Below are positions 3,912-59,470 of a DNA stretch of 64,000 bases, in pieces. The notes beneath the pieces are model-generated. The model saw only the letters and a list, made by a program, of their open reading frames with translations, had not been told where the DNA came from and searched no databases. This DNA is from Amphiura filiformis (lineage: Eukaryota; Echinodermata; Ophiuroidea; Amphilepidida; Amphiuridae): NCBI RefSeq assembly GCF_039555335.1, contig NC_092637.1:41866990-41930989 (forward strand), in the 5' to 3' direction. Position numbers and translations under genes: made by a program. The stretch's first letter is position 1; every line of letters begins with the position of its first letter.

Positions 3912-3975
3912 ATGGCTCGACTTACGTTTGTGTTGATCTACTTATGTTATTCAATCCAGGCCCTTCATGGCACTT
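3912..3975 (+). CDS. Receptor exon 1: signal peptide
   Basis: Encodes Met-Ala-Arg followed by a hydrophobic stretch (LTFVLIYLCYSIQA), typical of a secretory signal peptide. It ends in phase 1 at a GTAAGT donor. No TATA box is evident upstream. Confidence 0.75.
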
Positions 3976-6900
3976 GTAAGTATATTAAATTTCGTTCTTT
4001 CTGAAAAAGGGACAGTTTGCTTTACTTTATTTCCGTTTAATATACACCAGGCACAAAAAGAAACTCGTCAGTTATATTCATCCTTGCTGTTCAATAACTT
4101 GATCATTTTGGATTATTCTGAAATATACATTTTGTTAATTGGACTTTTCTTTCTTTTGACACCCTGTTCGTGAACATTGAGCAAGAATTGACCAAGATAT
4201 GCGCCTCAAACTCTCAAACCCCAAAATGAAAAGTTGGAATTTTAACCATTCAATTGTGCCTTCCAATGTGTGCTTTATTGATTGGCCCGTGGTGCTTGTG
4301 TGCAATACACGATGCGTTCCCATTTAAAAACGTTGAAAATGCAACTTTTGATTTTGGGGTTTGAGGCTTTGGAGGCGCATATCTTGTTCAATTCTTGTTT
4401 GTTTTGCACGAACAGGGTGTCAAATGAGAAAGCAAAGTCCAATTAACAAAATGTATATTTCAGAATAATCCAAAATTATCGAGTTATTGAACAGCAAGGA
4501 TGAGTATAACTGACGAGTTTCTTTTTGTGCCTGGTATACACACGCAGTTAGCAACACAAATTGTGCTTCTTTTATATTACTACTGAGTGTGGCTGGCTCT
4601 ATTATATGTCGGGCATATAAAGATTTTGTCGGGCTGGTAACTTTTATGAGTTACCTGCTATGAGTTACCTGCCCGATCTGGCTAGTGGTCAAAAAGTTAG
4701 AGTACACTCCTGGTTCAATGGCGTATCAGGTTCAGTCATCTGAGGGGAAACACACATACACACGAGTCTTTTTTGTTCCTGTGGTTATTATACTCTGACA
4801 ATTGCATGATAATTTTGTTTTCAATTGTGCACTATTGTAACACAAAATTAAGATAAAATTGTACGTTAATCAGGCAAAATTAAGGAGGTAAAATTTATGG
4901 TGTATATACCCGGGGTATATACCTGGCGAATTTTCAACTAACACCCCCACTGGAGGTATATGACAACCATTGTTTGAGGATACGGTTTTATCCACTAAGA
5001 AAAAACAACTACTCCATTGTTAAAACTTGGTCCCATTTGGAAAGGTAATATTGAACTTTCCTATCAACTTTACAAATGTTTGCCAATTTCTCACATCAAG
5101 TTAAAAAAAAAATCGATATTTTAAACATAGATTTTCGTATCTATATCAAATTATGTATCTTTTTCTGCTTTTTGTTTTGTAATTTTTATTATATAAACTG
5201 TACATTTGTGTACAAATTGAGGGCGTTATTTACATATACTTTAAATCTGAATTAGCCAATTAAAGGAGTATTTCGTGATCCTAGCATCCTCTTTTTATGA
5301 CATTTTTCAGTACATATCCACGAAAAAGCATATTCCCAAAATTTCAGTTGATTCCGATTTTGCGTTTGCGAGTTATGCATGATTATGTGTATTACACTGC
5401 TCCATGTACAATACGTTGTAATTTCGTTCTGGTGCACCAGAACGAAATTCAAATTTCAGGATATCTTTGCTAAACGAATTAATCTGCAAGAAATATTTTG
5501 TGCATAAACATTATGTAGCCAGAGGTTTCCAGTGATATAAAAATCTCAACTTTTTTTGAGAAAAGTGGGGGGATGAGGCTGTGGATCACGAAATGCCCTT
5601 TTAATATGAGTTAACCATGTTACCAGTGTCTACCCCTTGTAAAGATGCAAATAAGATTTATGATAAATAGCGCCATCATTGTTCAACTTTTCTTTAAAAT
5701 TGCAGTTTTACATGCCATCAAACATTCGTGCACTTACCCCGGGGCACTTACATCCGTAACTAACAGCAGTAAATTAATTTGTCATTACCTATTTGCTTCC
5801 ATGATTCACAGCTAACCACACCTATGAATATCGTCTTGTTAACGGTGACACACGCTATGAGGGACGCCTAGAGATAAGGAGAGATAGTGGTATATGGGGT
5901 GACGTTGCTGGGTACTACTGGACGTCCACAGAGGCATCAGTAGCGTGTCGCCAGCTGGGATTTTCTTCTTCCGTCTTTCCTCCCGATGCTACGCAGAGGT
6001 TTGGTGCGGGGTCGGGAACGGTGCATGTCAAAATCACTAAATGTTCTGGTTCCGAGTTGTCTCTAATGGATTGTACGCATGGACTGTGGGATGATCCAGG
6101 GATTGGTAAATATGGTACAACTATGGGCCTAAAATGTTTGCCAGGTAATTTATTTTATCTTGTTATTCTCCCTCTTCTTCTTCTTCTCCCTCCTTCAGCA
6201 AAAAAAAAAGTAACTAGTCCCCAAGACAGGCTGCCTGTACTGCCGGAAAGTAATCTGTCCATATGGTATGCATTACTGGTGGACACACGATAATTCGCCC
6301 AATTCGGCCAGTTCCAACAATTGCGTAAGTACAGGCCGTATGGAGAAACCAATTCTTTTGTCATCCATTCACCCATATAATAATAGCAATCACATTGTTT
6401 TGGGGATGGATGTATACACAATGATTTGATTATAACAGAAACACATAATCATTATTTGCCTTTATTATGGATGAGTAACCAAATGTTGACATAACTGTAA
6501 GTTAGATATCCACCACAATAGAATAGCTTCTGGCATTTATTTATCTTCTTAACTCCTCAACAATGGTCACTGACCTTAGTCAATGGACTAAATCTACAGA
6601 ACCTATTCATGGCAAATCATGGCAAACTCTTTGAGCTGTCTGAAGGATCAAAAATATTGTATAAGTTATTGTTGGGCCAACTATCGAGTGACCACCGAGT
6701 AATGTATCTATTTTGGATTTGATGTAGCGGTACTCGGGCGCCGTCTTCATATCTAGTCCAAGGTCGGAAAAAGTTGCAAAATCGTCCACCTGACTTGCTA
6801 CCAGGGTTTACTTTAACGCACAAAACACGCGTATTTACGCGTTCAGGCACTTTGCTGACTCCTTCAAATCCAAAGTCCCAAAGTCCAACGCGTACAAAAT

Positions 6901-9900
6901 CTTGAAAACGTACGCGTTCAGATATTGCAAGATTTGAATAGAGAAACACCCGATATTGTGCATTTATTCTCGGCTTTTGGCATTTAGGACCTACTCCCGA
7001 TATGTGGGGCCCATCACATTTTGTCAGCATTGATCCATGCATGTTTTAGTGATTGCGAGTCTCTAAAATGTAGAGTGTCAGTTTGAAATCTTGCAAATTG
7101 GGTTCGGGTCCTTTTTCTGTTTAATGATGCACCAAATGTCTTTAGGCCTAAACTAGCAATATTTAACGCCATTTTGAACGTCGTATAAACGCACGACCCA
7201 CGCACCACGTATGTAACATTACAGTCTGTCTATTATGTCGTCATCGTCGTCGTCATTATCCTCTTCCAACGTTTTGTATCTTGAAATAGTAAAATACACT
7301 TCGTTCACATTTATTCATTCAATTAAATTATCAATGATATTAAAGTCAAAGATGTTTGGTTCTATTATTTTTCAGCCGGCTTATCTCACTCCTTGCGTTT
7401 GGTAGATGGGAACAACCCCAAAGGAGGGGTTATACAAGTGTACGACGGTGTCTCTAAATGGGGATATATTTGTTGCGATTCCTGGACACGCTACATGCAA
7501 AATGCCGATGCCATTTGTCGCTATTTTGGGTTTCAGCTCGCTATTAAATCTTATTGTGCCTCCCGATTGATTACCGACGAGCGCGATATACTTATTTCGT
7601 CGATGGCATGTCCGGTTAATGATAAAAATGGACAGCCTGTGAGAACCCTTGAACAGTGCCGATTGAACGCTTGGTTCCCATCTGGATGCAGCACTAGCAC
7701 CCATGCTGCTGTGGAGTGCATTACAGGTACGTATTACATCATCATGGATTGCCCTACAGACGAATCCAACGAGCCAAGTCATGGTCAGGATTTGGTCGGC
7801 CATATTAGGGTCCCCGTATGCACCAAACAGGTGTTGTGAGTGCACAATTGGGTGGATTAAACCCGCTTATGATTCGATGTGAGATTCTTTTCTGTTGTAA
7901 ACTGTCGTCATTCTTTTGTCTACGTGTAACACGGGTGATAGAATGCAGTTTAAAATACCCTTCAAGGCCGCATCATTTCACATTTTAGGTGAGATAGTTG
8001 GGTCCCCGTCGCTCCTATGGCCGCCATTGAGGTGCAGGAATGCGTGAAATTGGATTCGTCTATAACTACTGAGCCATATTTTATAATACGCATGAATTAT
8101 AAACGTCATACATACTGTTATATTGGGTACCAAGGTGTATTGCTATAGGTCGCCTCTATCCAGTGATACCAAAACATTACCCACATAATGTCTCTATGAC
8201 GTCATAATGTGCGGGCGCCCATGCAAATGTTGGAAATTCTGGCTATGTACAAAAGTTTAGGGACCGTTCACAAAAATTTCATCGCAAAATTTTCATTTAA
8301 CAGACCTCAACAATTTCAGGGCCCCCTTTTTAATTTGTAAATTATGGGTCAACCCCATAGAAAAGCATATAAACTTAATTTTTCCAGGAAATTAATTTTT
8401 TCCAATTTTTTTCAGGGCCCCCCTTAGGGGCTCAACATTTTCAGGGCCCCCCTTTTGCATCAGGCCCCCCCTTACAAGTGTTTGTGAACGGTCCTTAAGC
8501 AACATTGATTTTCACCCCCCCTATGGTCATCTTTGATGGCTGGTCCTACCCCCGGGTAAGGTGCTGGGGTAAAAATTGTATCACTAAAATAACCGCAAAT
8601 GATGGATCTACGATCAGTTTGGGCGTCAACGGATAAAAAATCTTAGGGGGTTGGTACACCCTCCTTCGTACTTAATTTCTAGGGTTAATGGCCAAACAAA
8701 TTCAAAGAATTGTATACATGAATACAAAAGCCACCTAAGTCCATGGGAAGTGATTTTGAGAGAAAAACCTGTGTATCATTTTAATTCCTTCAGTTAGATT
8801 TACCTGGTCAATATGGTTTTACATGCAAATGAGTGGATTAACCTGTATTAGGTATGACGATTAGCATTTCAGGAACTTCGTGGGTTTCATTTTAAATTTT
8901 GGACTTTTTTGAACCATATACAAAGACAACAATGTTAGAATGAGATTACCACTAGTAAGATAATACAAAATAAAGCGCACAGGTATGTATAATGTTGATA
9001 AGCATTCTGCCATGTAATATAAACCACACACTTTCCTTTATTAAACCCATTTTTTCAAAAGTCACTCTCTAGCAATGAATGTGTTACAAGTGGACTTTTA
9101 TACATACTGGATTTTAATCAATGTGTTACAAGACTCAAATCATGGAATTGGGTGATTCTTTCATACATGCTATTTTTCACATGCTCAATAGACACAGAAG
9201 ATGAATTTGAGTTGTTCTTCATACATATGACAGGCCTATGTAAAGGAACACTTTCCCATGCTTAACTCAATTTGGTTTAAGTATGGACGTAGGTGGCTTT
9301 TGTATTCATATATTCAATTGTATTCCGTGATAAAACTTCCAATGAAGTGATATCACACAGTAATACAGGGTGAGTCAAACAAAGTGCAATAGAGAAAAGA
9401 ATCCATTTTTATTTAAGAACCGAGTTGAACTTTTTAGGTTTTAAAACATTTTATATATGGTATATCCATCAGTGACCTTGTGTGAAAAATGTAAGGAATT
9501 AGCATTTACCGTTTTGTTTTTATGACACATTTTATAGCGCTACCCAATTTTAATGTTTGTCCTCATTGACATTAAAATAAAATGGAGCATCCAAATTGTT
9601 ATTGCCCTTGGTCTTGTTTAAGGAGAAGAAACATTTTTGTTGTTATTTTCATTTCCCCTTTACTTTGATAAAGATGTTTATTCTCTATCAAAAAGATACA
9701 AATTTGTAGGCGGGTTTTTCAAATGTCAAAATGAAATCCGCGCAAATTGAGGTGGAGTGAATTTCAAAATATCCAAAAAGTTGGACATATTGGGACTAAA
9801 AAATCTGGTGTTGGAGTCGAGTGAGGTATGAAGGACTTAAAGTAATGTTAGAAAGTTTGTTTGAACAGAAAAAAGAAAAGAAATTAAAGTAACGCAAAAA

Positions 9901-12900
9901 CAACCTTATTTAAGTCAGTTTCAGATCTGGTGTCTTTTAATACCGTGCACTGTGTGCTCTCATTCAAAATACATGGTACCTCGTGGACAAATAACGAAAT
10001 TGGGTATCGCAGCAAAAGGACTCATAAAAATTAAACGGTAGTCGCGATTCACTTCATATTTTCACAGAAGGTGACCATTGAGTGTAGCATTTATAGAATC
10101 TTTCAATATTGGAAAAGTTCGACTAAGTTCTTACATAAATATTGATTCTTTGCTCTATTGCAGTTTTTTTGACTCACCCTGTACATGTATTTTAAACGAG
10201 TTAAATACATATTTGAACCTTCTTTTTGTGATGCGTTATACAATACCATGAATAATGTGTTATACAATACCATGAATAATGAACTGCAAGAAGTAGCTAG
10301 AAATGTGCAATTGTATAAAATGTAATAGTCTCATTTCCCTGGACCAAGCTTGAAAACTGAAATTCATAAGAAATCGTCATGGTTTTTGCAAAATGCTTTA
10401 AAGTTAACTTTTCTTTATTTCTGCCGTGCTCTCGGATGTGCGTATCGCGATCACCAGCGCGTACTTGGATCACGATAGGAATACAAATTAATTATTATAA
10501 CTGAATACTATAAACAGCCCTAACACGACAAGGGGCAGTCTTCAGTAAACGGCTCTTTTTAGGGCCACCACACCTTTATATTTAGAAGGTCTGCGAGGTC
10601 TGCTTGTTTTCTGTAAACAAGGGGCAGTCTTCAGTGAACGGCTCTTTTCAGAGCCATCAGTAGGCAAGGGCGGCCTACATGTCTCATTCTTAGGTACTTT
10701 GTCCTGAAGAAGTCAGAGCTATACGAAAGCTTGACAGTTCTAAACTTGTCCGACGGCGAACCCGCTAAAAACCCACTAATTGACGTCTATATTATCGTAT
10801 ATTCGTGATTTTACGTAATGCTGAATAACGGAGTGCTATAAACCGCCCGTCCAGTGGAGGCACTACAGGATGGGGTGGCCAAATACTTTTCTTTCCCCAG
10901 TTGCCCCGCCAATGCCCCCAAAAACGAAATGACCCATCTAATACGTTTAAAACCATGAAAAAGCGACAACGACGAACGCAGATACTTCCATAGTATCGTA
11001 TCGTCGTGATGTTTACATAATTCCAGAATGGTCGACTGCAGATCCGTCGGATAATGCTTTTTCAACTTCGCTGCTTGCATGATGTCACGATGATGTTAGC
11101 ATTTATTCCGTATTGAAAAGCGTGTTCCGACGGATCTGCACTCGACCGGCCTCATAGAGAGATTGCGATGTACCGTTAGATGGCGATATTTCAACATCGC
11201 AAAGATTATTGTTGTAGAGCCAATGGGATAAATGAGCTGTGAGGCCTATCTACGATTTTATTTTCATTTTATTCTTAAAAAGGAAACACAACCAATGGTG
11301 ATTACGACTTGCGACTCGGTGATAGCTATGGTGACTCCAAGACTGGTGGATTAATTCAGGCGAAACTAGCTGGCGAGAAAGGCTGGAGAAATGTCTGTTA
11401 TCGCAAGACCATTTTTGATTCTTATATGCAAGTAAGTGTTGAAGTTGATCCAATTATTAGCATCATTTCATATTATTACAAATAAAGTTCTAACACGATT
11501 GTATAGTAATGACCAACGGTGTAGGTCTACTAAAAGACTAAAGCGAGTTTTTACAATTAACCCGGGATTCCGTATGTGTGCATGCATAGATAACTGACGC
11601 ACACCGACATCGCCTGGCAAATAATTACTTTCTCTGCAGAGATACTAAAATCAATACCCGGGATCGATACACGTGAATGTTCTATGCACGAGTTTGATAT
11701 GAGACGAAAATCTTTGGATACCGGGGTAGAAAACGATGAATATCTCCCGTAAATGATTTCGTATAAAGAAACCAGATATGGTTCCTTGCACTTGAATATA
11801 TATTTTGAACAGATATGATAGTCGTTAGCTTGCGTCTTGAGATAAAAGCTTGCGTCTTGAGTCAAAAACTGACAATAATTCTGATTTATATGTGCCGAAA
11901 TATAGCGCAGTGTATACATAGGCCAATCGTGAAGGTAGTCTAAAAGCATATGACCTATGGCGTACATGTACCATGCTCGACTCGGCGAGGTCAGTCACCG
12001 GCCTAATCGGGGCTATTGTCAGTAGCCTTAGTCAGATGTCCTTCGGCCCATTATGCGACTCAAAACTATTAAACAGGTCGATACAAAATGGCCATGCGTG
12101 GCGCTGGATTCACACTACCATGGCGATTTCTGCCATGAAGATATCGGGGCGATGTCACTGTGTGACGTATAAACTCTGCGTATATCGTAAATTCGTCTTT
12201 ACATGTAGCTATGATGTAAAAGTCTTATTTTACCTCATTTGTTTGGCTCGAAATGGAAAGGTTACATAAAATGAGACTTACACCTAATTTTTTATTTTGT
12301 GAAAAACGAAATAATTTATATTATTCTGTATCAAAATCGCACATTATTGCTTTAAGTTCTGAAAAGGCGACCTCGAAAGTGACTCTGGAACGGTGTGATG
12401 GTTTAGATTGAGCTAACTGTGCCAAATTCTTATTTACGCCCAACTTACGTCGATCGTAACTTTACATCTTATGTTTTTCCCTATGATGCACTACAACCTT
12501 ACAACACCTGTATTAACTTCATATTGAAGCGACCCCAGGTGGTATAAAACACGCGACACGTGGCGTACGGGGCTGACGAAACTACAAGGTTAAAAGCCCG
12601 TTCAAAATAGACGGTTAGCAGTTACAAATTGAAAAACGACTTACTTACAGTGGTGTAATTTATCGCACCCTAACGGTGTTTAACAGTTTTTGACACCACA
12701 TGACACATTTAGAATTGTTTGACAACTATAAGTGTTAATCCAATTCAATATCGCATCCGAGCCCCCCCCCCCCTGGGATACCCAGGATTAATTGAAATAC
12801 TATAATGAAAGACAGAGATAAAAAAGACTAGTTCGCGTCTGAAATTCTGACAACTAGACAGAAAATAACGTTCTGTGCAGGTCGGCAACCAATCACGGCG

Positions 12901-15900
12901 CGCCTTTGCCTTGACGTCAGACGCGACACTTGATAAAATATTACCAAACAATAGTAATATTTTTTTTTAACCTCTGTCTTTCATTATATAATGATTTATT
13001 TCGCAGGAAATAGTGAGACCTGTAGGGGAGTTGCTGTGCCCAAAAGGGAATAACAATGCTGATATTGAATTACGACGTGCAGGTGATTGTGAGTTGTCCC
13101 AAATCTATAGAAAAAGACCAAAACCTTCCAGCCTCCTAGTATTAGATGACGAATACCATGAAAGCAACAAAAACGAAACGCGCAATTTACTTGGCAATCT
13201 TGTTGTGGCTGAGGAGTCTTGCTCAAAGTATGGTTACGAATCGTACTACGTAAATTGTAACGTAGGTATGTCTATTTCTTTTTCGTTTTATATAATTTTG
13301 AATGAGCAAAATGTATAGTACACAAAATGGAGGCTATGCGCGAATCCAGGATTTTGAAAGGGGACCGCCCATGAAAATATTACTATATATAATGCTTCGC
13401 AGTTATTTTTATATTTTAAACCAAACATTAACTATTATCGTGTGTCTCGTCTTAAGTTGAGAATAAGGCCATGTGTGATTTTGATGTGGCAGATGCGAAT
13501 CAGTGCGAGTACGTGGTTTCTTTCCGCAGTGTACGAACAAATCGGCCTCCTACGCGTCTGTATATGCCCCGCGGGATTAGCAGCGCGCGCAATTCGAATC
13601 TGTCACTGCAAAATCCAACATGGCGTTACTCTCAACATTAGACGGGACAGACTATAGTATTACGATACTGAAACGTTTTTAAATGTTTACATGTTTAATA
13701 GTTTGACCTCATGAATATACGCGATGTGTGCGTTTTTCAATCATATTTTATTTTTTGTAAACATGCAGACGCAAATGTTGCTAATTAATCTTGTTAATAC
13801 AGGGTGTCCCTGAAAGAACCGTATCGTCGAAAACTGAATGTGGTTGAAGAATAACTATCACATACTTTTTGAATTTTGGCAATTGACCGCTCCATTTTTG
13901 AAACAAAATAATTTTACGAAACTACCTCATTTTTAGCCCGTTCCACGGAGTCGAATATCTGTCAATGACAATAGACACCTCATGCGCTAATGATGCGCAG
14001 TGATTAGCACTCCGAATACAGATCATCGATTAATATTTGAATCCGTGGAAAGGTTAAAAAATGAGGGAGTTTCGTAAAATTCTTATATTTCACGAACGGT
14101 GTGGTCATTTGTCAAAATTCAAAAAGTATGTGATAGCTGATTTATTCCTCAACCACACCAGCTAATAAGTTATGTTTAGTTGTGGCGTTAAAATACCCAA
14201 ACAAGTTTCTGACGATACAGTTCTTTCAGGGACACCCTGTATATTACAATTGACCGCAAATTACGCAATCTTAAAGTGCGAGTAATCACCGCAAGTAAGC
14301 CCACGTACTTTTGTAAAATTCTTTTAAAGGTCCGTAACCCGATCGACAACATCATCCCCCGATTTTTGTCATTGTTAATGAGTTTTTGGTATCACAAAAT
14401 AGATCGTATTTTTCTCATTACTATCCTGAAATTTGACGCCCCAAGTCGATGTATTTCCGGAGAAATCGGAGAATTCACACAAAAATAGCTTCCTTGGTGG
14501 CTATCAATTTCTTGAATTCTGGACATATTCCCAGCCTAATCATGAAGCTCCCGTGGCCAAGTGGTTAAGGCATAGGTCTCGTAAACCTGAGGTCCTGGGT
14601 TCGATTCCCAGGCGGGATCACTTTTTCTCCTTGTCTCCTTTATTATTTGCGACGGCGAACCTGGTGAAAATTAATGTTTAGTTATTAAAACATCTGGAAT
14701 TGGCAATTTTTGGCCAGCATCGAACTTTGCCTGTTTTAGGCCTACATTGGTTGTTTGGTTTTTGTCTACTTATGTGCTCAGTGATTTTCATCACTTGTTC
14801 TAGTACACTTTTTCTTCTAATGCCTATTTTGTTCCCCCACTACGTACTGTCTAGTCTGTATTTTACTTGTTCCCCACGTCAAGTTGGTGTACCTTGCTTT
14901 TTTTCTTTCCATTTTTATACCCTTTATATAACCTGACATTTTTACGTTTTCTGTTAAACGTTTTGTGTTTGCTGGGTTGGTGGGTGGGGGATACTTAGAC
15001 AATTGGGTTAATCTAAACTGAGCTCAAAAAGAAACTTATAATTTTTCACAATGTCATATCTTGAAATCCTGTCTATCAAATTCTACCAAAATTACACACA
15101 GGTTTACTTCAATACTCTACTCTTAACACATGTCAGTAACCAAGCAGTTATCCAACTGACACAACAGCAAAATGCACTGACATGGAACAGCTTCCTGGAA
15201 CATATTCACAGCCCAGCTCTGTTTCATGAAAAAAGTGTATGAAAAGCAGAAAGCAGCACCGTTTTATCATCTGTGCAAGGATCTTGTGTGCATTCTCACA
15301 GATTTTTTTGTGCTGGGTGCCAAATGTTGGGCTGTGAAAGTGGAGGAAGTCCAGGAAGCTGTCCCATGACAGTGCATTTTGCTGTTGTGTCAGTTGGACA
15401 ACTGCTTGGTTACTGACATGTGTTTTGAGTAGAGTATTAAAGTAATCCTGTGTGTAATTTTGGTTCATTTTGATTGACAGTATTTTAAGATATGACCTTG
15501 TGATTCACGCGTTGTAAAAAATTATAAGTTTCTTTTTGAGCTCAGTTTATTTTCACGTGCCTTTTTATTTAGATATCACCTATCACGGTGTCCAGTTTCA
15601 TTACCAGGAAGAATACAGCTGTCGTGGAAGATGTGGATACGATGTCACTGCCTTCCATTGTCATTGTGATCCTGATTGTCAACTATTTCAAGACTGTTGT
15701 TATGACTACCATACCAAATGTCTGGACCCTGCTGATGCTCCTAATATGTCTGCATCGCCGGAGCCACATTTGTTTAGTTGTAGACCATTGGACCAAACAG
15801 CACAAGATCACAGGGGATCAGTTCTTCTACTCAGCAAATGTCCATCTCAATGGAATGAGAGTATTATTAGGGAACAGTGTGAAAACTATCCAACTTACCT

Positions 15901-18900
15901 TGGATCCCTTGATCAAAATTTGCAGGTAGTTTATAAATGGCCAGTCTTTGATCAGTATGGTACTAACTTTAAAAATGTGTTTTGCGCAATGTGTAACGGG
16001 AAGCAGCCTTTTGACGTCCAGCCTTGGAATACAAGCCTAGTTCAGCTGTATCATAGAAGAGGATCTTGTGCGCAAAGTAAGGATATGTCATTTTCAGTCG
16101 GACGAACTCTTCGCCACTGTTTTTCTTCGATCATCGATTCCTGCCCAAAATCTTATAATGACTCTGAAATAGCAACAGCGTGTAGTTCGTATTCGGCTTC
16201 AATTTGTCCTATAAAAGAAGTTTACAAAAATGTACACTGCGGGCGTTGTAATGGATTTAATGCTTCCAAAACCGACATCAGTCCATGTCATTTGGGACTC
16301 GCGTCTTTGGACGGCAGCCCATATTTTGGTACGTTATGGAGCTTTCAACAAAGTGCTAGTTCTCAGCCAGAATATCCATCTCCGTGTTCCTCGAAGGACG
16401 AAATATTCGATCCTTTTACTCGTAAGTGTCAGCGTCTTACTTGTTCACCCGGACTTAAATACAATACTACATCAATGAAGTGTGAAAACTTTCCCGGAGT
16501 CCCAAATGCCATATCTGGAATGTGTTGTATGAAAGAAGAAACTTGGATACTTTACAACAACAAAATTGGATTTAGTGAGAGCATGGCTTTTGAGGAAGAC
16601 ACTTGCTTGGTAGATTACTTAAGTCATATGAATGTAACATACAAACGCACTGATGATATCACATGGCAGACAAATAAAGTAATGAACACATATTCTTCAA
16701 AGATGATGTTACGTTCAGGAAAGCCACTCTGTAACATTGGTAGTAACATGGACCAGGCGATTCTTGAATCTAATATCGTATATGATAGATGTGAGATATA
16801 TAACCTTGAATATCTGCATGTATGTGCAAAAACAGAACTAAAGACACACTGCAATGGAGAATGGTATCAGGGTAGAGCTGAAGATTTCCAATTGGTGGAT
16901 TTCAGTAATATTGCAGAAGTGCTGCAATATAAACAGCAACTTATACTCCCTGAGTTTGTACTTAACCACATCTCATACGAATACGACCACATTGAAGAGA
17001 TGTTTAAAAAACAAGAAATGGTCCTTGTGTGTGGTAGAAACATAACCACTGACTTAACTTGTCCTTTGATAACTCTCGCGCCAGAAGAATATCAGATTTC
17101 ACCACATCGTAAATCTATCATTCTAATCCTCAACGACAATGCAACTGAAGAGATAGAAGACTATCTTATGCTACCGGATGGCCGTGTACAGATATGTGTG
17201 CATGAAACACACAGAGTTCCCCAAAAGTTGTTTTATTTCAATGGGCATCTAGACATATTCAACACCATAGGAAGTGTTCTATCAATGACAGGTCTTACCG
17301 GTACACTTACCTTTCATTGTTGCTTCGCCAAGTTAAGAAGAAATTTCCACGGGCTCTCACTTATGAGATTATCTTTTGCGATGTTCTGGGCATATCTTCT
17401 GCCTCTTCTCAGCATGACATTCGAATTAACAGGGATATGGTGTGTGATCTGGGCAAGTGCTAGTCATTATTTTTGGTTGGCAACATTTTGCTGGAACACG
17501 ATCATTGCGGTAAATTTGTCCGACACTTTTGTTTGGCGGCCTCTTCAAAAAACTGAAATTCGCGAACACAGCGCAATTTTTCGCTGGATATTGCCTGTCA
17601 CTGGTTGGTGCTTACCGTTATCGATCACCATAATCTGTTTATTCTTTCATGTTTATGGAGTCGCAGGTTTCAAGTATGGAAGCAGTACACCGTGTTGGAT
17701 ATCCAGTCCCTTTGCAAATCTTGCAGCATTCGGGGTACCGGTAGTAATATGTTTGGCGTGTAGTATCATATGCTTTGTGGCTACTGTGACTTCAATTTGT
17801 CGCAGTCAGAAATCATCCAGGCAGTTACAGCAAAGGAATAAGGCCGTCACTGTGGAGGATGTGATACTTGGAGTCAAGGTAATAAACTTTGCAGATTTTT
17901 AGTACATACAAAATTAGGCTTGGACCAGGGTCGTAGCAAGAGCCTCGGGGGCCTATGGGCAAGAAACACGTGGGGCCGGATTTACCATCAGGCCAGAGTA
18001 CTGTCGATTTTATACTATGGACCAAACCAAACTTGGCCTCCTGAGTGCACATGCCTTCCTCACGGTGAGTTTGGTGCCTCCAAATTTTGCCCTGGTCCAG
18101 ATAAATTCGGCCCTGCCTTTTAGCATCTCCTTAATCAGCGCTTATTTCATTTTCTCTTTTGCTTGGGGGACAAGCAAGGCTGTTATTGATGAATTTGCTT
18201 AGGGATGAAATCAAAACTCAACCGCGTTTTGACTAGCGGCTACCGTCGGTTGAACCACGTTTTCAACGGATTTCATGAGCAAATGATGAAACAAATCAAG
18301 AGAAAAAAAAATTACAACCTCTATAATTGATATTTAATATGGAAATAATTATATAGTATGGGCTTGTTTGGTCAAAGAAAAGTAATTTGTTAATTTTCAG
18401 TGCCTTTTATCAATTTTCATTGCCTTTTCTTAGAAAAGGCATCATGATCAATACAGAAAAAGAGAAATGAATGGGTGATTAGCGATGAACTGCTGCCCAC
18501 CAGATTATTAACTTACGTTAGATGTTATAATTAGATTAAATTATACATCTTTTCAACTAGACTTACTGTTTTGTTGACTACAGTATCGCATGGATATGAC
18601 GTGATACTGTAGTCAACAAAAACAGGAAGTCCAGTTGAAAAGATTTATAATTTAGTCTAAAGTTAATTTTTTATTACTTCCGTGGTCCGGGTACGCGCTG
18701 GTGAATTGCGGTCGCGTAGAAGTGACAAAGTCGCCTACTGCTCGCCGCGCCGACGACCAATGGGTCAACCGGCTTGTTGTCAAGTGCGTTGATCAGCCAA
18801 TCAGCATGATTGTTGATTTCTTCTGTATGTACGCTCGTCTACGCTTGGCGCACAGCTTGGACCACGGAAGTAATAAAAAATCAAGATTTATAATTTAGTC

Positions 18901-19234
18901 TTACTATATCTTAACTCACTTTTGTTTATTTCAGATGAGTCTTCTGATGGGAATTGGCTGGGTATTTGGCTTCATCGCCTCATTCTCAGATAATCTCGTG
19001 ATGTGGTGGATTTTTGCCAGTATAACGTCGTTTCATGGTTTTTTGTTATTCGTTTCGTTCTGTTCCAGCAAGCAAATCAGAGATATAATAACTGGGCCGC
19101 ACGATAACAGTACAACTTCTAGTTTAAAGAAGGAAAGAATAAGCTTATCATTTATCAACGCTCCTTTAAGGAATCTCGTAAATCAAGATATTATATCGAA
19201 ATTGTCGTCGAAATCCCAGAAATCCAGAATATAA
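3912..19234 (+). CDS. SRCR / somatomedin-B seven-transmembrane receptor (7 exons)
   Basis: Predicted cell-surface receptor of 1,253 aa. Coding exons: 3912-3975, 5812-6144, 7376-7726, 11283-11431, 13007-13265, 15573-17878, 18935-19234. Every junction is GT-AG and intron phases run 1,1,1,0,1,0 with no stop, which is the main evidence for a single gene. Order: signal peptide (1-20), SRCR 1 (about 29-130), SRCR 2 (about 137-247), a divergent SRCR-like part (250-385), somatomedin-B (402-435, eight cysteines), a cysteine-rich ectodomain with two C-x2-CNG modules, then TM1-5 (about 947-1125) and TM6-7 in the last exon. The 7TM part resembles adhesion/Methuselah-like family B, with a CW pair in extracellular loop 2. 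No GPS cleavage motif is seen. Ligand unknown. The start at 3912 has a purine at -3 and G at +4; an in-frame ATG lies at 3891. A split into separate SRCR and receptor genes is the alternative. Confidence 0.82.
4041..4538. mobile_element. Palindromic MITE in receptor intron 1
   Basis: The ends are inverted copies (TATACACCAGGCACAAAAAG and its complement). The arms extend about 170 bp each side through 'aaatatacattttgttaatt' and 'gcgcctcaaac'. About 500 bp long, with no ORF. Confidence 0.75.
5128..5690 (+). repeat. Partial copy of the 1831-3440 element family
   Basis: It shares 'agattttcgt-tctatatcaa', 'tataaactgta-atttgtgt' and 'aatagcgccatcat' with the 1.96-2.2 kb part of the longer element. 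It is interrupted by a MITE at 5260-5604, so this copy is older than that insertion. Confidence 0.65.
5260..5604. mobile_element. MITE family A copy 1 (TIR TTAAAGGAGTATTTCGTGATC)
   Basis: 345 bp with ~22-bp TIRs; the right end closes 'gatcacgaaatgcccttttaa'. The centre has a perfect hairpin around 'ttctggtgcaccagaa'. Full-length kin lies at 57268-57616 and an internally deleted copy at 24404-24605. It has no ORF and is presumably mobilised in trans. Confidence 0.85.
5812..6144 (+). CDS. Receptor exon 2: SRCR domain 1
   Basis: A symmetrical phase 1-1 exon encoding one complete SRCR domain. It shows the family landmarks: RLVNG, EGRLEI, GIWGDV, ASVACRQLGF, GSGTVHV, CSGSELSLMDC and a closing GLKC. 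Six cysteine-type positions fit a group B-like scavenger receptor repeat. SRCR domains usually bind protein or microbial ligands; no ligand can be read from sequence. The phase 1-1 layout is typical of shuffled extracellular modules. Confidence 0.9.
6145..7375. other. Receptor intron 2, no further feature seen
   Basis: Apart from a short (CTT)n run near 6175 and A-rich strings, I see no repeat pair, RNA gene or conserved coding segment. Minus-strand frames here match nothing I recognise. Confidence 0.5.
7376..7726 (+). CDS. Receptor exon 3: SRCR domain 2 (divergent)
   Basis: A second phase 1-1 exon. It encodes SLRLVDGNNPKGGVIQV, then KWGYICCDSW and DAICRYFGF, matching the SRCR landmarks RLV-G, WG-VC and A-VCR-LGF. 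The GSG and SL-DC region is replaced by unusual sequence, so this repeat is clearly more diverged than the first. Acceptor TTTTTCAG, donor GTACGT. Confidence 0.82.
8257..8498. mobile_element. MITE with TTAGGGACCGTTCACAAA ends
   Basis: About 242 bp in receptor intron 3. The left end 'gggaccgttcacaaa' is mirrored at the right by 'tttgtgaacggtcc'. The interior is rich in 'ggccccc' blocks. Confidence 0.7.
8708..9319. mobile_element. Inverted-repeat element, ~610 bp
   Basis: 'aatacaaaagccacctaagt' on the left pairs with 'acgtaggtggcttttgtatt' on the right. Weaker pairing extends to 'aattg'/'caatt' at the outer edge. No ORF; lies in receptor intron 3. Confidence 0.7.
9364..10183. mobile_element. 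TIR element, 820 bp (TACAGGGTGAGTCAAA ends)
   Basis: The left end 'tacagggtgagtcaaa' is exactly mirrored at the right. Pairing continues through 'gcaatagag-aaagaatc' and 'gtaagaac' for about 70 bp. It has no coding frame of note and lies in receptor intron 3. Confidence 0.78.
10551..10566 (+). other. Histone-type 3' stem-loop, copy 1
   Basis: GGCTCT-TTTT-AGGGCC forms a 6-bp stem (one G-U) with a 4-nt loop and is followed by ACCACA, as in replication-dependent histone mRNA 3' ends. It is preceded by 'caaggggcagtcttcagt', shared with copy 2. No histone coding sequence is seen nearby. Confidence 0.55.
10640..10655 (+). other. Histone-type 3' stem-loop, copy 2
   Basis: GGCTCT-TTTC-AGAGCC is an exact consensus histone hairpin (6-bp stem, UUUC loop) with AC before it and ATCA after it. 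It lies 89 bp after copy 1 in the same orientation with the same 20-bp leader. Confidence 0.6.
11030..11147. repeat. Short inverted repeat
   Basis: 'ggtcgactgcagatccgtcg' pairs with 'cgacggatctgcactcgacc' with one mismatch, around a ~75-bp loop. It lies 135 bp upstream of receptor exon 4. Confidence 0.55.
11283..11431 (+). CDS. Receptor exon 4: partial SRCR-like region
   Basis: Encodes YDLRLGDSYGDSKTGG, then LIQAKLAGEKGWRNVC, which resembles the first half of an SRCR domain (RL-G ... G-L-V ... GW--VC). It enters in phase 1 and leaves in phase 0 at GTAAGT. The acceptor is a weak AAAAAG after a T-rich tract, so the left edge is less certain than at other exons. Confidence 0.65.
13007..13265 (+). 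CDS. Receptor exon 5: cysteine-bearing linker
   Basis: An open phase 0-to-1 segment of 86 codons between a TTTCGCAG acceptor and a GTATGT donor. It carries scattered cysteines (LLCPKGN, GDCELSQ, ESCSKYG, VNCNV). It may be the decayed second half of the third SRCR repeat, but the VCR-LGF landmark is absent. It is included because the phase joins both neighbours without a stop. Confidence 0.6.
13798..14241. mobile_element. Palindromic MITE (TACAGGGTGTCCCTGAAAGA ends)
   Basis: The ends are perfect inverted copies over about 20 bp. Pairing resumes inside with 'aactatcacatactttttga' against its complement near 14110-14140. About 444 bp, in receptor intron 5. Confidence 0.8.
14547..14620 (+). tRNA. 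tRNA-Thr (CGT), possibly a pseudogene
   Basis: The D stem GCC/GGC, the anticodon stem TAGGT/ACCTG with loop CTCGTAA (anticodon CGT, Thr) and the T arm CTGGG-TTCGATT-CCCAG all fold. The acceptor GCTCCCG pairs 6 of 7 with CGGGATC only if one extra G after the T arm is bulged, giving 74 nt instead of 73. A TTTTT pol III terminator follows 2 nt downstream. It lies in receptor intron 5, same strand. It could be a live gene with a slip or the head of a SINE, although no SINE body was recognised after it. Confidence 0.6.
15014..15549. mobile_element. MITE family B copy 1, abutting receptor exon 6
   Basis: 536 bp. The TIRs start TAAACTGAGCTCAAAAAGAA and are mirrored at the right end; most of the element folds on itself. 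A second copy stands at 36487-37021. It ends only 23 bp before the exon 6 acceptor, so that exon's branch-point region probably lies within the element. Confidence 0.85.
15573..17878 (+). CDS. Receptor exon 6: SMB domain, ectodomain, TM1-5
   Basis: A single 2.3-kb exon. The SMB domain has the full eight-cysteine pattern (C-x3-C-x8-C-x-C-x3-C-x5-CC-x6-C), with DCCYDYHTKC matching the DCC-DY signature. Next come two modules ending FKNVFCAMCNG and YKNVHCGRCNG, a long N-glycosylated stretch, then five membrane spans starting near 'IFNTIGSVLSMTG'. CWISSP after TM4 and a cysteine before TM3 are the conserved disulphide pair of family-B-like receptors. The exon ends after TM5/ICL3 at AAG|GTAATA. The ATG at 15536 lies in intronic MITE sequence and is not a likely start. 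Confidence 0.9.
18532..18659. repeat. Hairpin palindrome in receptor intron 6
   Basis: Arms of about 57 bp (18532-18588 and 18603-18659) share 'ttgttgactacagtatc' and 'tcttttcaact', separated by a ~14-bp loop. It may be a small MITE. Confidence 0.7.
18659..18883. mobile_element. MITE family C copy 1 (CCAAT-box-bearing)
   Basis: TIRs 'taattttttattacttccgt' and complement. The interior is GC-rich, with 'gaccaatggg' and 'cagccaatcagc' (CCAAT motifs). About 90% like the copy at 22514-22747. The right end is truncated relative to that copy, and an 18-bp direct repeat flanks the element. Confidence 0.8.
18935..19234 (+). CDS. Receptor exon 7: TM6, TM7 and cytoplasmic tail
   Basis: Follows a TTTATTTCAG acceptor in phase 0. 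It encodes SLLMGIGWVFGFIASF (TM6, with the family B GxxW-F-F pattern), FASITSFHGFLLFVSF (TM7) and a Ser/Lys-rich tail of about 45 residues before a TAA stop. Confidence 0.88.
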   Translation: MSLLMGIGWVFGFIASFSDNLVMWWIFASITSFHGFLLFVSFCSSKQIRDIITGPHDNSTTSSLKKERISLSFINAPLRNLVNQDIISKLSSKSQKSRI

Positions 19235-26500: not shown

Positions 26501-29500
26501 CCATTATCAATTTGGAAGGCAACCATGTAAAGAATATGAAAACCAACACTTGGGTCTAAACGTGTAATAGCTTTCTATAGATATCTCGCCACTACCTTTT
26601 TTTTACCATTATCAGTGGTTCGTGTTGAAGTTCAGAACTTGTAGAGTTATTGTTTAAAATATGCAATTCTAAAACAATACAATCTTTTCCACGCACAAAG
26701 ATAAGTTTATCAAAATTAATCGAGGTTTTAACCTTATTATGATAATAAATAGTGCTTCTTTTCTTTGCCTGTTTGGTGTTTGTTTTACTGAACAGGCAAT
26801 ACAAGTGCTTTAGTTGGGACGTGTACAATTTGGCCGGTGTCGTGCTGACTCGTGAAGTTGTTGTAGCATATTGCATCTTACACACATGAGTCTAAACGTT
26901 TGATAGCTTTCCATAGATAACTCGCCATTATCATTTTTACCATTATCAGTGGTTCGTGTTGAAGTTAAGAACTCGTACAGTTAAATTGCAATTCTGATAT
27001 AAAACAATCTGTACCACGAACAAGGATAAGTTTTATCAAATTAATCGAGGTTTAGTAACAGGGCTGTCAACTCTCACGCATTGGCCGTGAGTCTCACGCA
27101 TTGGGTCACTTTCTCACGGTCTCACGCCTAGGTAGTATAATCTCACGCCTAGGTATTAAACTCACGCAAAAAGCTGGAAAATGACTAAAATCAATACATG
27201 CGTTTTAATTTTGGTTTGGTACTCTCATACACTATAATTATTCGTAATGTATTAATTAACAGACTGTATCAAAATGATTGGTAGAAACAAAATCGGATTC
27301 ATATATAGAGCGCCTTTTTCCAGATCTTGAAGGATTCCTATAGCGCTGTAATTTCGCTGCCATGGTCATTGCAGCCGAAACTGGCGCAGACCTATCCGCA
27401 CTTAGATTGTAACATCCACTAATTATCTGTGCAGCATCCCAAATTCCATTGGGTGAAGGAAGTTTTTGATAACCAAACAACTAATCACCGATAATTTTGA
27501 ATTTGAAAGCAAGAGGAAACCGAAGATCCCGGAGAATACCTGTGAGAGCGAGCATGGAATCGGGATAAACCAAATACACATACTGTCCTTGGGCACAGCT
27601 GGGACTTGAACCCAGGACCTTAGTGGTTCAAGGCGAGGGAACTATCGCTGCGCCAACTCGCTCTCCCAATTGGTACCCATCAATTTTTATGTTTATGCCC
27701 GCATCTTCCAAATCCAGCATTGGATACACTTGAAATTTCACAAATGTATAGTTTATGACTTGTTATACAATAAATCTACAATTCAACTCATGTTGAATTT
27801 GGTGTGTCAGACTCATCCACTATCAGTGAAACCTGATGAGTACCAATCATTTTGAAACAGCTTTAATTATGTTCACTCAACATTCATTCTTCCACAGATC
27901 CAATGGCATTCCAGATCACGACACCGCCACCTGGCCATGGCCTGGAGTCAACCCAAACTTCATCAGAGAACAGTCCTACCAGTACACATTGCCAAAAACA
28001 CCAAGGTTTGCAACAGAAGCCACATGTTTACCAGGTGGTCCCATAGGTATGGCTAGCAATGGATTGCCACTTTATAATCCATGGAACGCATTCAGTGAAA
28101 ATGCAGTGGCAGGTGACACGGCAGAGGTAGGTTAGGCTTCGGTTGTTAGTTTCTTTCATAGATTAATAAACACATAGATTGGAATGTTCCATACAATCAT
28201 GTGCCCTCTAAAGCGTACTGGGAGTCATCCGGCACAGCGTTCAGACCTGGCGACATCGCTTATCTTACGCACGAAGTTTCCTTTGTGTACGCTCGCACTA
28301 TTTGCGCTATAGTGGTGGTGAGTTCGCTCACGCAAACCTAACTTAGCGTCGATCCTATAGGCAACATGCCCACATTCTGCGGTATGGTTTCTATGACCAG
28401 TTGTATGGGACCTTGAATTCAGACTCCTGTGAAATCGCTTTACCACGAGTCTGAGATCTGACATATTATACCTATGCACGTATTTCTACTTTGGCAGTAA
28501 TCAAAGCATTTTGGCACTTATGTGATTACATTAGGGACATCAACCGGTTTCATCCGGTTGCTATTGTTCTAAACAATGGTAACCGGACGGAACCGGCGGT
28601 TAACTGCTGCCGGTCGAGGTTTGATTTCATCCCTTAGACAATGCATCATTCTTTGCTTCAATTTCTCATGTGCAAATTGAAATTAAAATTCTGCCTGTGA
28701 GTTTAGTAAAGGGTTTAGGCTTGACAGGAAAAAATATGCATTTTAGTAGGTTCTGTAATAACGGAAATAAGGCCATAATTATACAGGTGTTACTTTTGGC
28801 GAAGATGTAACTCGTGCCAATTTTCACTTTTTATTATTATATAGATATTTGACCTATGTGACGGTCATCCAGACGAGCCAGGTCGATACCATTATCATAA
28901 ACAACCAGCAAGTTGTCTCTTCAAAGATCCATCTCAAATGCTTGGTGTTGCCTTTGACGGGTTTGCTATTTATGGACCGGTCGACGAGAACGGAAAGACC
29001 TTAACATCTGCTGATTTGGATGAGTGTCATGGAAGGTATGTCAAATTGTCAAGACATCCCCACATACCCCTACCGTAATTTATTAACCGGCAAACGAGGA
29101 TGCATGTGATGTATCCTTACAGTTGGAAAAATCATCATAATTTCAAAGCTGAACAATATTGGGGTATATTTGTTTTTTTAATAGATGCACTATCTAATCC
29201 CGCACATTATGATACCACATTGAATCCAATGTGACCTCAAGAAGTAAAGTTATAAGCAATTGAATAGACGATGGTCCCGTTTTAAAAGTGACAAACTGGC
29301 CTATACAAGGCGCAAAATGATTCCAACAAGCGCAACAACGAGACAAAACAGTTTCTTCAATGAAGCGTTATTTAAACCAGTTTTTATTTCAGTTTTTACT
29401 TACTTCTCTGTACTTATCATAACCAAACGCATAAATTAGCCATTCACCACTCTCAAACCAGATGTCTAGTCCGTGGAGTTTTGAATAGGTGCTTGTAACG

Positions 29501-30753
29501 TTACTTCTTGAAGTCACATTGGATTCAATGTGGTATCATATAATGTGCGCATTAGATAGTGCATCTATTAAAAAAACAAATTTAGGCCTACCCCAATATA
29601 GTTCAGTTTGGAAATTGTGATTATTTTTCCAAGTGTAAGGATACTTTATTGGCGCAGTATATGTTATGATTGGTGTAGGTATATTAGATTAAGTTGCCAA
29701 TAATATTTTGCCAGTAGATTTTACTTCAGCATGTTCAAAGATCTTATCCTTAAAGAAGTAACTTTGACCTCTAGTTACGAACTTACGACGGTTATGCAAC
29801 ATTTGTCAAAGAAGTAACCATGATTTTCGTCAAAACAATAAAATTACCAAATGACCACCTTTTTTAGAAGATCGATCGGCAGTTATTTTTTCTCAACTGC
29901 TCAATGATTATGGGCTTGCTTTGTCTTGTTTTGTTTTATTTTATTGTTTGATAAAATATGTTTATAAAATGTCCTTGTTGCTTGTTTCACCTATTCCAGG
30001 TGTTTTAATGGCGGTATTAATCACCTAACCCTTGCAAATAAAGAAATATGATTTAGGATAAATAGCGCCATCTGTAGTTTGCATTTAGTTAATAATGAAG
30101 CCAATTCTATACACATCAAACAGGAAAGAGGACATTAATCAATGCGTCATCACCATAATTATTAAAGGCCTCTGGCTTTGATTAGTTCTCTTCACGCGGG
30201 TGTCAACTGCAGACAACAAGTTCAACTTATTTTTTAAATTCAACAAATTCAGAATTATAAATTTTCATGACCATATTATTTGGAATCAGCATTAAAAATG
30301 CATTATAATGAGTACAAACAAGCCTAGGTTCTGTGGTTCTTGAGATAGCTCTTGATATTTTGAGAAAACTTGGGACATTTTAATGTTTAAAAATGTTTCT
30401 TTATTCTTTATAGATACAATAATGGCGGCACATACCAATACCACGCTACCGCAGACTTCCCCTACATCTTAGGATGCTTCAAAGGCAAACCACATGGCAT
30501 AGTCATCCATCCAGATTTCTGTTACTTCGCCAGTGACGCTGATGAGAATGGAAATATTCCGAAAGCTTCTGCGTCAAACCACGAGATGAAAATTGCTGGG
30601 GCAATTGCCGACATTGAAGAAGATGTTGCTCTCGAAGCTTTATCGCATGATGAAGAGCATAGGCCACGTGTCCCAGCCAATCTGTGGCAGAGACGTCTGC
30701 CTAAAAATTACATTGAGTTTCTTAGCAAGAAGCTCTTTGAAGGGGTTGCATAA
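23355..30753 (+). CDS. Secreted YHYH-domain protein (4 exons)
   Basis: Predicted 312-aa secreted protein. Exons 23355-23533, 27898-28126, 28845-29035, 30414-30753; intron phases 2, 0, 2, all GT-AG, uninterrupted. Residues 1-21 are a signal peptide (MALIRILSTAIVLAIALQCYA). The YHYH domain follows: SNGIPDH, NPNFIREQ, GPIGMASNGLPLYNP, then IFDLCDGHPDEPGRYHYH (YHYH at 151-154) and MLGVAFDGFAIYGP. The second histidine-rich echo GGTYQYHAT lies at about 203-211, with conserved cysteines around it. The C-terminal ~70 residues (EEDVALEALSHDEEHRPR and on) are acidic then basic and match nothing I know. The biochemical role of the family is not established; the histidine cluster suggests metal binding, which is inference. 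Confidence 0.9.
23819..23990. repeat. Empty-site paralogue of the 37-430 repeat
   Basis: Uninterrupted copy of the repeat split by a MITE near the left edge of the window. It lies in intron 1 of the YHYH gene. Confidence 0.7.
24404..24605. mobile_element. MITE family A copy 2 (internal deletion)
   Basis: Both TIRs are intact, but about 145 bp in the left interior is replaced by a C-run/A-run junction near 24460. The right half ('agtggggggatgaggctgtg') is well preserved. Confidence 0.82.
25050..25475 (+). mobile_element. tRNA-derived SINE, copy 1 (plus)
   Basis: The head has A-box TAGCGCAGCGG and B-box GGTTCAAGCC. The body ends in 'aaaaaggcgctatataaat' and an ATTT-rich tail, a 3' tail of the kind shared with L2/CR1-type LINEs. 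An inverted copy lies at 27290-27668; both are in intron 1 of the YHYH gene. Confidence 0.8.
26117..26459. repeat. Inverted-repeat element
   Basis: 'taaagactgcacaaaaagta' with 'acgcagctgt' pairs with its complement at 26430-26459. An inner pair ('tttaaagaaaa-acccgaatt' and complement) continues the stem. Likely a ~343-bp MITE. Confidence 0.65.
26554..27060 (+). repeat. Two partial copies of the YHYH upstream region
   Basis: 'gataagtttatcaaa' with 'attaatcgagg' occurs at about 26700 and 27030, as it does at about 23118 just upstream of the TATA box. 'actcgtgaagttgt' also recurs at about 26851 (original about 23255). The two intron copies form a tandem pair beginning 'gtctaaacgt'. Confidence 0.6.
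27290..27668 (-). mobile_element. tRNA-derived SINE, copy 2 (minus)
   Basis: Reverse-oriented relative of the 25050-25475 SINE: the tail 'gagcgcctttttccag' is at the left and the pol III boxes at the right, ending near 'aactcgctctccc'. Mismatches and indels suggest independent, aged insertion. Confidence 0.78.
27898..28126 (+). CDS. YHYH gene exon 2: first half of the domain
   Basis: Enters in phase 2 after CTTCCACAG, completing an Arg codon before SNGIPDH. It contains the PGGPIGMASNGLPLYNP box typical of YHYH proteins and leaves in phase 0 at GAG|GTAGGT. Confidence 0.88.
28845..29035 (+). CDS. YHYH gene exon 3: signature motif
   Basis: Carries CDGHPDEPGRYHYH and the GVAFDGFAIYGP box, followed by ADLDECHG. 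It leaves in phase 2 at AAG|GTATGT. Confidence 0.92.
29111..29644. mobile_element. Palindromic element in YHYH intron 3
   Basis: The outer pair is 'gtatccttac' and 'gtaaggatac'. The inner pair is 'atagatgcactatctaat' and complement, with 'cacattgaatccaatgtgac' next. The arms are about 135 bp each. Confidence 0.75.
29960..30125 (-). repeat. Reverse partial copy of the 1831-3440 element
   Basis: 'gtttcacctattcca' and 'aatagcgccatctgtagt' through 'gaagccaattctata' match, in reverse complement, the region around 2970-3130. Confidence 0.65.
30414..30753 (+). CDS. YHYH gene exon 4: domain end and tail
   Basis: Completes the domain with YNNGGTYQYHATADFPY and LGCFKGKP, then a charged tail ending in TAA. 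No canonical AATAAA was found in the next few hundred bases. Confidence 0.88.
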
Positions 30754-40161: not shown

Positions 40162-41543
40162 AGAATTCAATACAATTCAATTCAAGAAACATTTATTTCA
40201 CAACTTCAAAAATACATAGAATAAATGACAAATGCCATAATTTTCAAACCAATTACATACAAAGCAAAGTAGTGAATCCGATCACAGGCCCACTGATGAC
40301 AGTCAAATGCGATCACGTAAGAACAAACAACCTATTAAAAGGCAAGAGACAGGACAAGAGTGGGCCTGAGACAAGATTATGAGGGGCATCAATAAAAAAC
40401 CTAAAATAAAGTTGTGGGGCAACACGCGGGGAGCAAGCTCGTGGGTGCGGGTTGCCGGCAAACACTACAAACGAAAATACAAATACAAACAGGACAAGAC
40501 AAGACATTACAACAAAAAAAAAGATGTGAACAGGAGTCAAAGAATAATTACTGGTAAACCGGTTTAGAAAGCAAATTGCGCTTAAAATGATGTTTGAAGG
40601 AGCTTGTGGATGTGGCATTTTGGATGGAAATGGGAATGGAGTTCCAAATGTTAACTCCATGCACTTTAATCGAGGCGGATAGAAATTATTCACACGCCTT
40701 GTATTATGACTATGAATTGTAGCACTATATTGAAAATAGTTGTCAAAAAGTGCAGGAAGCAAGCAATTGTGAGCTTTGAACATAAAGATAGCTGTATAAA
40801 GTTCATTTATATCATCCAGACGGAGAGTTTAAAGATTGGCAAACAAAGGCCCAGTATGTGCACGAAAATCAGCATGGGTGATATATCTGATTGTACGTTT
40901 CTGAAGTCTAAAGAGAGGGTTTAGGCGTGAAGACGCAGCTCTACCCCAAGCAATATTACAATAACTCAGGTGGGGAGCACAAGGGTGTCATAGAGTGACT
41001 TCAGGATGACAGATGGAAGGACATAACGAAGCTTAGATAAAATACCCGCGCTTCGGGCAACTTTGCTTGAGATGTATGAAAGATGATCAGCCCATGATAG
41101 TTTATCATCGATGATGATACCCAAGAATTTTGTGTGAGAGACTTGATCAATAACTTTGTTGTCAATGCGAATATCAAGAACAGCAGGGAGTTTATTCTTC
41201 ATAGCTCTGGTGGTGAAAAGCATGAACGAAGTTTTATCTACGTTCAACGAAAGCTTGTTGGCATGAAACCATGAAGCAACTTTATCTAATTCTGTGTTCA
41301 TGGTAGCAACCAGGGCATTTATATCACGATGTGAGAAGAAGATGTTTGTATCATCTGCAAAAAGTAGGAAAGAAAGCTTGGAGGATACATGGGAGAGATC
41401 ATTAATATAAAGAAGAAAGAGCAAAGGACCCAGGATTGAGCCCTGTGGCACGCCACAAGTGATCGGGAGATGTGATGAAAGTCGGGAGTTGAAGTTCACA
41501 ACCTGTTGACGGTTATTCAAATAATTTTCAAACCAAGACATGT
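40162..41543 (-). pseudogene. 5'-truncated LINE with RT 3' half
   Basis: The minus strand reads SWFENYLNNRQQVV, GVPQGSILGPLLFLLYINDL, LLFADDTN (catalytic FADD) and FLGIIIDDKLSWADH: the RT palm and thumb of a Jockey/CR1-type non-LTR retrotransposon. A frameshift near 40968 and a stop (NL*TLRLDD) near 40840 break the frame. The C-terminal part resumes through MFKAHNCLLP and NTRRVNNFY. The tail is a GAATT-type repeat. It is inserted in the left arm of the fold-back element, where the right arm has no counterpart. Confidence 0.85.
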
Positions 41544-54245: not shown

Positions 54246-54283
54246 AATTCAACCTTCATGTCACTTTATCTTTCAGATCTCAA

Positions 54284-58556: not shown

Positions 58557-58853
58557 ACTGTAATGCTCTCGGATTCTTCTTTCTTCTGCCAACAAACTTC
58601 AAAATGCTTCTTCTCCTACATGTTACACCCTACAATTACGTAACTTGCACATATGTATCGGCTATGTCCAGTGCCCATAGTGTCTAAACAGAATTGGGGT
58701 CAAAGGTCATTAAGGGGCATTTCTGGTATTTAACCAAATACCTTCAAAATGCTTCTTCTACCACATATTATATAGTACAATGATGTCATTTGCATATGTA
58801 CATCGGCTATACTACACGCCTATAACTTGCATACAGAATTGGGGTCAAAGGTC

Positions 58854-59470
58854 ATTAAAGGGTAAAATCTTACAATTGCATTATCTGGACATCTGTAAGG
58901 GGTATGGGGCTCAAACTCGGTGACAACAAATCTCATGACCAGGGGACCATTTTGCAGGGGTCAGGTCAAAGGTCATGCAGAGGTCAAATTTTAGAAATGC
59001 ATTTCCTGGACATCTGTAAGGGGTATGGGGCTCAAACTTAGTGACAACAAACTTAATGATCAGGGGAACACTTTGCAGGGGTCAGGTCAAAGGTTATATG
59101 GGGTCAAATCTTATAATTTCATTTTCTGGATATCTATAAGGGGTTTGGGGCTCAAACTCAGTGACAACAAATCTCATGAACAGGGGAACATTTTGCAGAG
59201 GTCATGGCAAAGGTCATGCAGAGGTCAAATCTTAGAAATGAATTTTCTGGACATCTATAAGGCGTACGGGGCTCAAACTCGGTGACAACAAAGTAGATGA
59301 ACAGGGGAACATTTTTGGAACATTTTGTAGGGGTCAGGTTAAAGGTCATCTGGGGTCAAATCTTAAAATAGCATTTTCTGAACATCTGTAAGAAGTACGG
59401 GACTCAAACTCGGTGACAACAAACCTCATGACCAGGGGAACATTTTGCAGGGGTCAGATACCTCCACAAC
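58854..59470 (+). repeat. Tandem array, five ~120-bp units
   Basis: Units marked by 'ctggacatctgtaagg' start at 58885, 59006, 59126, 59247 and 59378. Each also has 'ggggctcaaact', 'gtgacaacaaa' and 'caggggaacattttgcag'. Because 120 is a multiple of three the array stays open, giving a spurious repetitive ORF. Confidence 0.85.

Follow-up and report, generated by a model that had tools for sequence, protein, structure and literature searches.

A gene on the plus strand of an Amphiura filiformis chromosome appears to couple scavenger-receptor-type and somatomedin-B (SMB) modules to a seven-transmembrane core. We put at roughly 80% the probability that it is a protein-coding gene for a multi-domain class-B or adhesion-like GPCR, lacking a detectable GPS or GAIN domain, with a ligand-binding ectodomain and G-protein signalling. 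The window, meaning the whole 64,000-nucleotide stretch of contig NC_092637.1 that was analysed, holds seven plus-strand exons between 3912 and 19234 that read in a single frame, 1,253 residues long and free of internal stops. The encoded order is a signal-peptide-like start, SRCR, SRCR, the module of exons 4 and 5, SMB, about 500 cysteine-rich residues and 7tm_2.

Gene model and coding evidence

The first-pass annotation had joined seven exons in phase, and this model withstands closer inspection: all exon borders are GT-AG, phases are consistent across the seven exons, and the 1,253 codons run to the final stop. From this continuity we infer that exons 1–7 form a single transcript. The features are as follows.

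3912–3975, plus strand: exon 1, carrying the start codon and a hydrophobic, signal-peptide-like stretch; phase 1 at its end; donor CTT/gtaagt
5812–6144, plus strand: exon 2, SRCR domain 1; symmetrical phase 1-1; Pfam SRCR 1.4e-19
7376–7726, plus strand: exon 3, SRCR domain 2; symmetrical phase 1-1; Pfam SRCR 1.5e-12; matches PDB SRCR chains
11283–11431, plus strand: exon 4, first part of a module without a Pfam match; phase 1-0; coding-like codons
13007–13265, plus strand: exon 5, second part of the exon 4-5 module; phase 0-1; coding-like codons
15573–17878, plus strand: exon 6, SMB domain (15617–15727), cysteine-rich stretch (15728–17248) and start of the 7TM core
18935–19234, plus strand: exon 7, rest of the 7TM core, followed by a short cytoplasmic tail and the stop codon
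19394–19399, plus strand: AATAAA, possible poly(A) signal, the sole AATAAA or ATTAAA within 1 kb past the stop

Exon 1 reaches a hydropathy of 2.27 over its best 10 residues; a second ATG, read by eye, lies in frame with it at 3891. Since exon 4 is phase 1-0 and exon 5 is phase 0-1, the two are jointly 1-1, like exons 2 and 3. Scored against a consensus matrix, 11 of the 12 splice sites rank in the top 6% among the window's GT or AG dinucleotides, the exception being the weak acceptor of exon 4 (top 26%).

Codon use was scored with exons 4 and 5 kept out of the training set. Equal-length open non-coding stretches, which are overlapping windows and not independent, scored as high as exon 4 in 5 of 594 cases and as high as exon 5 in 0 of 57. 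The measure must be interpreted as supportive only and not decisive, because it was weak in leave-one-out controls (medians of −0.008 to −0.108 for exons 6, 7 and the NXPE gene described below) and lent no support to exon 1, which was matched or exceeded by 2208 of 3235 stretches and for which it is uninformative. A tblastn search of the model against the window returned its own exons and two weak cross-matches between the SRCR exons (E 0.30 and 0.37). In a profile scan of the window's 1189 stop-to-stop frames of at least 30 residues, exons 2 and 3 were the only SRCR matches at E <0.7.

The introns and the remainder of the window carry other elements. A tRNA-Thr (CGT) lies at 14547–14621 on the plus strand, within the intron preceding the SMB exon, and another tRNA match at 2625–2686 on the minus strand. 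Long imperfect inverted repeats, 74–96% complementary, occupy intron positions 4043–4538, 9364–10183, 13855–14136 and 15046–15503 and are perhaps MITE-like elements. Farther downstream, a long open frame at 54248–56020 (plus strand) belongs to an NXPE family gene (NXPE4_C 2.1e-59, Neurexophilin 5.4e-10), and a reverse transcriptase fragment is found at 40969–41550 on the minus strand (RVT_1 1e-17). Two plus-strand stretches, 27830–28132 and 30391–30750, are possible exons of a gene for a YHYH-domain protein; their matches (E 0.084 and 0.028) are below the Pfam cut-off and fit opposite ends of the profile. Tandem arrays were found at 45182–46451, with a unit of about 356 bases, and at 58843–59457, with a unit of about 121/241 bases containing several GGTCA words.

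Domain content of the predicted protein

Pfam profiles recover the domain order SRCR–SRCR–SMB–7TM that had been proposed from the letters alone. Across the joined protein, SRCR matches over two stretches (1.7e-29), with exon 2 at 70.7 bits and exon 3 at 48.2 against a cut-off of 26.1. Given the joined gene model, Somatomedin_B follows at 9.4e-08 (32.7 bits, cut-off 23.1), and 7tm_2 matches at 4.3e-16 over profile positions 4–249 of 250 (59.4 bits, cut-off 20.6). The SMB domain and most of the 7TM region sit in a single exon, exon 6. Kyte–Doolittle hydropathy at a threshold of 1.2 gives just five peaks across the 7TM region, so the assignment of seven passes rests on the full-length 7tm_2 match.

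Comparison with sequences of known structure is in keeping with these assignments. The N-terminus matches SRCR proteins, PIT54, CD5L, LOXL2 and DMBT1 among them, and the SMB region weakly matches vitronectin (0.014 to 0.052). The 7TM core matches 19 PDB sequences at E up to 0.001, every one an adhesion GPCR (class B2), with ADGRG2 the best (1.1e-16). By appearance, the TM3 region may be closer to Methuselah-like receptors than to adhesion receptors of vertebrates. The pattern that follows the SMB domain may likewise resemble that of other invertebrate SMB receptors.

Between SMB and the 7TM core lies the cysteine-rich stretch, about 500 residues with 27 cysteines, which matches no Pfam family and, at E up to 10, no PDB sequence. 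Searches with HMMER at default filters and E up to 10 detected no GPS or GAIN domain either in the whole protein or in the 481 residues preceding TM1 when these were searched apart, although a diverged fold could escape such searches. Nor did Pfam return a match in the joined protein to the HRM domain of class B1 secretin receptors or to Methuselah_N (PF06652). NCBIfam gave nothing near cut-off for exon 6, exon 5 or the NXPE frame, and an AlphaFold prediction of exon 6 alone from a single sequence had a mean pLDDT of 34.

Neither Pfam nor a PDB sequence search, the latter at E up to 10, gave a match for exons 4 and 5. In pairwise comparison, however, shuffled sequences aligned to the start of exon 3 as well as exon 4 did in only 4 of 2000 trials, and the alignment starts at a near-equal distance from the exon border in each and ends at each one's first cysteine. 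For exons 4 and 5 together against exon 3 the count was 32 of 2000. There was no resemblance to exon 2, with 590 of 2000 shuffles as good for exon 4 and 892 of 2000 for both exons. A profile built from PDB SRCRs and the window's two SRCRs was matched as well by 24 of 1000 shuffles of exons 4 and 5 and by 7 of 2000 shuffles of exon 4; an SRCR profile without the window's own domains was not selective (464 of 1000 and 359 of 2000, respectively). Judged on these alignments, exons 4 and 5 may represent a degenerate third SRCR.

One gene, two genes or several splice forms

The SRCR and receptor portions might belong to two adjacent genes, a secreted SRCR protein comprising exons 1–3 or 1–5 and an SMB-7TM receptor with an exon of its own before 15573. 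Phase alone is no argument against this arrangement, since a phase-1 end is common among signal-peptide exons, and exons 1, 6 and 7 alone would yield an open protein of 889 residues, so that the receptor could do without the SRCR exons. An ATTAAA at 7856, just past the stop reached by reading through exon 3, could end a short form with SRCR domains only; signals of the AATAAA or ATTAAA type occur about 2.5 times per kb in the window. Between exon 5 and position 14684, some 1.4 kb beyond the exon 5 read-through stop, there is no such signal. The frame of exon 6 contains no ATG ahead of the SMB domain, and an SMB-bearing receptor therefore needs an upstream coding exon. The first-pass annotation had named an independent signal-peptide exon just 5′ of the SMB exon as the alternative to its model. 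We searched 13266–15560 for single exons beginning with ATG, encoding 14–60 residues and ending in a phase-1 donor, and among 41 candidates none had a donor as good as that of exon 1 (top score −1.47 versus 2.15), which leaves that alternative with no plausible candidate there. The search leaves room for a start exon that is non-coding, multi-exon or farther from the SMB exon. Overall, we consider two genes unlikely.

Alternative splicing of one locus is compatible with the single-receptor reading, and the odds we attach to the two overlap. Here each phase 1-1 SRCR cassette would be either included or left out, so that SMB-7TM receptors would carry 0–3 SRCR-type modules. With exons 1 and 7 fixed, 10 of the 32 possible exon combinations stay open to the final stop. 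Seven of these retain exon 6, six of them with at least one SRCR-type exon and one without; the other three lack the SMB exon and would not encode receptors. The SRCR cassettes could thus be spliced alternatively, but frame compatibility of this kind is to be expected from the symmetrical phases common among extracellular modules and is no evidence of use, and we regard such a repertoire as unlikely. A decaying or artefactual gene, whether pseudogene or assembly error, would explain the weak acceptor of exon 4 and the state of SRCR 1 (5838–6137, plus strand), whose Pfam stretch has only 4 cysteines compared with 8 for SRCR 2 and reads WGDVAGYYW, without the cysteine that the PDB SRCR chains compared with it carry at the fifth place. 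Such a history is highly improbable for a reading frame that stays open for 1,253 residues across seven exons and includes a complete 7tm_2 match.

Proposed mode of action and comparison with known receptors

SRCR and SMB modules serve in ligand or protein binding in other proteins, and SRCR modules are familiar from innate immunity. In the receptor that we favour, the SRCR and SMB modules together with the cysteine-rich stretch would bind an extracellular ligand, a microbial or host glycoprotein, at the cell surface; the cysteine-rich stretch (~500 residues) would relay a conformational change to the 7TM core, which may then signal via G proteins. The surface location, ligand class, cell type and G-protein coupling envisaged here are all what we infer from the domain content. 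With no GPS found, autoproteolysis followed by tethered-agonist activation is unlikely; a ligand acting through the ectodomain is likelier. As the SRCR modules are phase 1-1 units, they may have joined an SMB-7TM receptor by exon shuffling. Pattern recognition with a G-protein output is a plausible role. A more specific proposal, in which a GPS-less SRCR–SRCR–(SRCR-like)–SMB–7TM receptor is carried on one chain, spliced SRCR cassettes tune microbe recognition and G proteins provide a direct readout, strikes us as quite unlikely. Evidence of expression in immune or gut cells, together with a microbial ligand, would make it possible to test in an invertebrate whether scavenger-type recognition feeds directly into G-protein output.

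The first-pass annotation was aware of no SRCR domains on an SMB-bearing 7TM receptor and treated the architecture as unusual. For SRCR on a 7TM protein that novelty fails, as the combination is in print for amphioxus, a sponge and the sea star Acanthaster planci (PMC2246102, PMC4302439, PMC10855680), and the SRCR-7TM domain architecture is not a first. In amphioxus, some adhesion GPCRs carry SRCR at the N-terminus and others carry SMB there (PMC2246102, 2008). Like the Amphiura model, these receptors pair a family-B-type 7TM with SRCR or SMB; many amphioxus adhesion GPCRs have a GPS, in contrast to the Amphiura model, in which none was found. The passages compared, as distinct from Figure 2 of that paper, make no statement that SRCR and SMB share one receptor. 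In the sponge Amphimedon, the adhesion GPCRs Aq712029 and Aq715659 carry multiple SRCR repeats (PMC4302439, 2014) and so share with the Amphiura model multiple N-terminal SRCR domains on an adhesion-type 7TM, whereas SMB, which the Amphiura model has, goes unmentioned there in that the word somatomedin is absent from the paper's text. For the sea star A. planci, a survey covering 1747 SRCR genes from 29 species lists 7tm_2 among the top five SRCR partner domains (PMC10855680, 2024, Table 1). The combination of SRCR with PF00002 is shared with the Amphiura model; the sea star gene models are the survey authors' predictions.

The SMB half of the architecture has its own precedents. Methuselah-like homologues with Somatomedin_B are reported from N. 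vectensis (XP_001628572), B. floridae (XP_002608881) and S. kowalevskii (XP_006821924), and the Methuselah_N ectodomain is limited to arthropod members (PMC4768249, 2016). These homologues outside arthropods share with the Amphiura model an SMB domain before a 7tm_2-type core; SRCR, present in the Amphiura model, has 0 occurrences in the text of that paper (PMC4768249). For the sponge Halichondria, a figure legend names SR, SO (somatomedin B-like), GPS and 7TM, and the accompanying text does not state which proteins combine them (PMC8242945). Within the text of the open-licence PubMed Central papers searched, as distinct from figures and supplements, we found no description of SRCR and SMB on the same receptor. 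Relative to these systems, the Amphiura locus offers a clean, complete gene model for a receptor class that we otherwise met only in surveys, in which SRCR is wired to a GPCR core.
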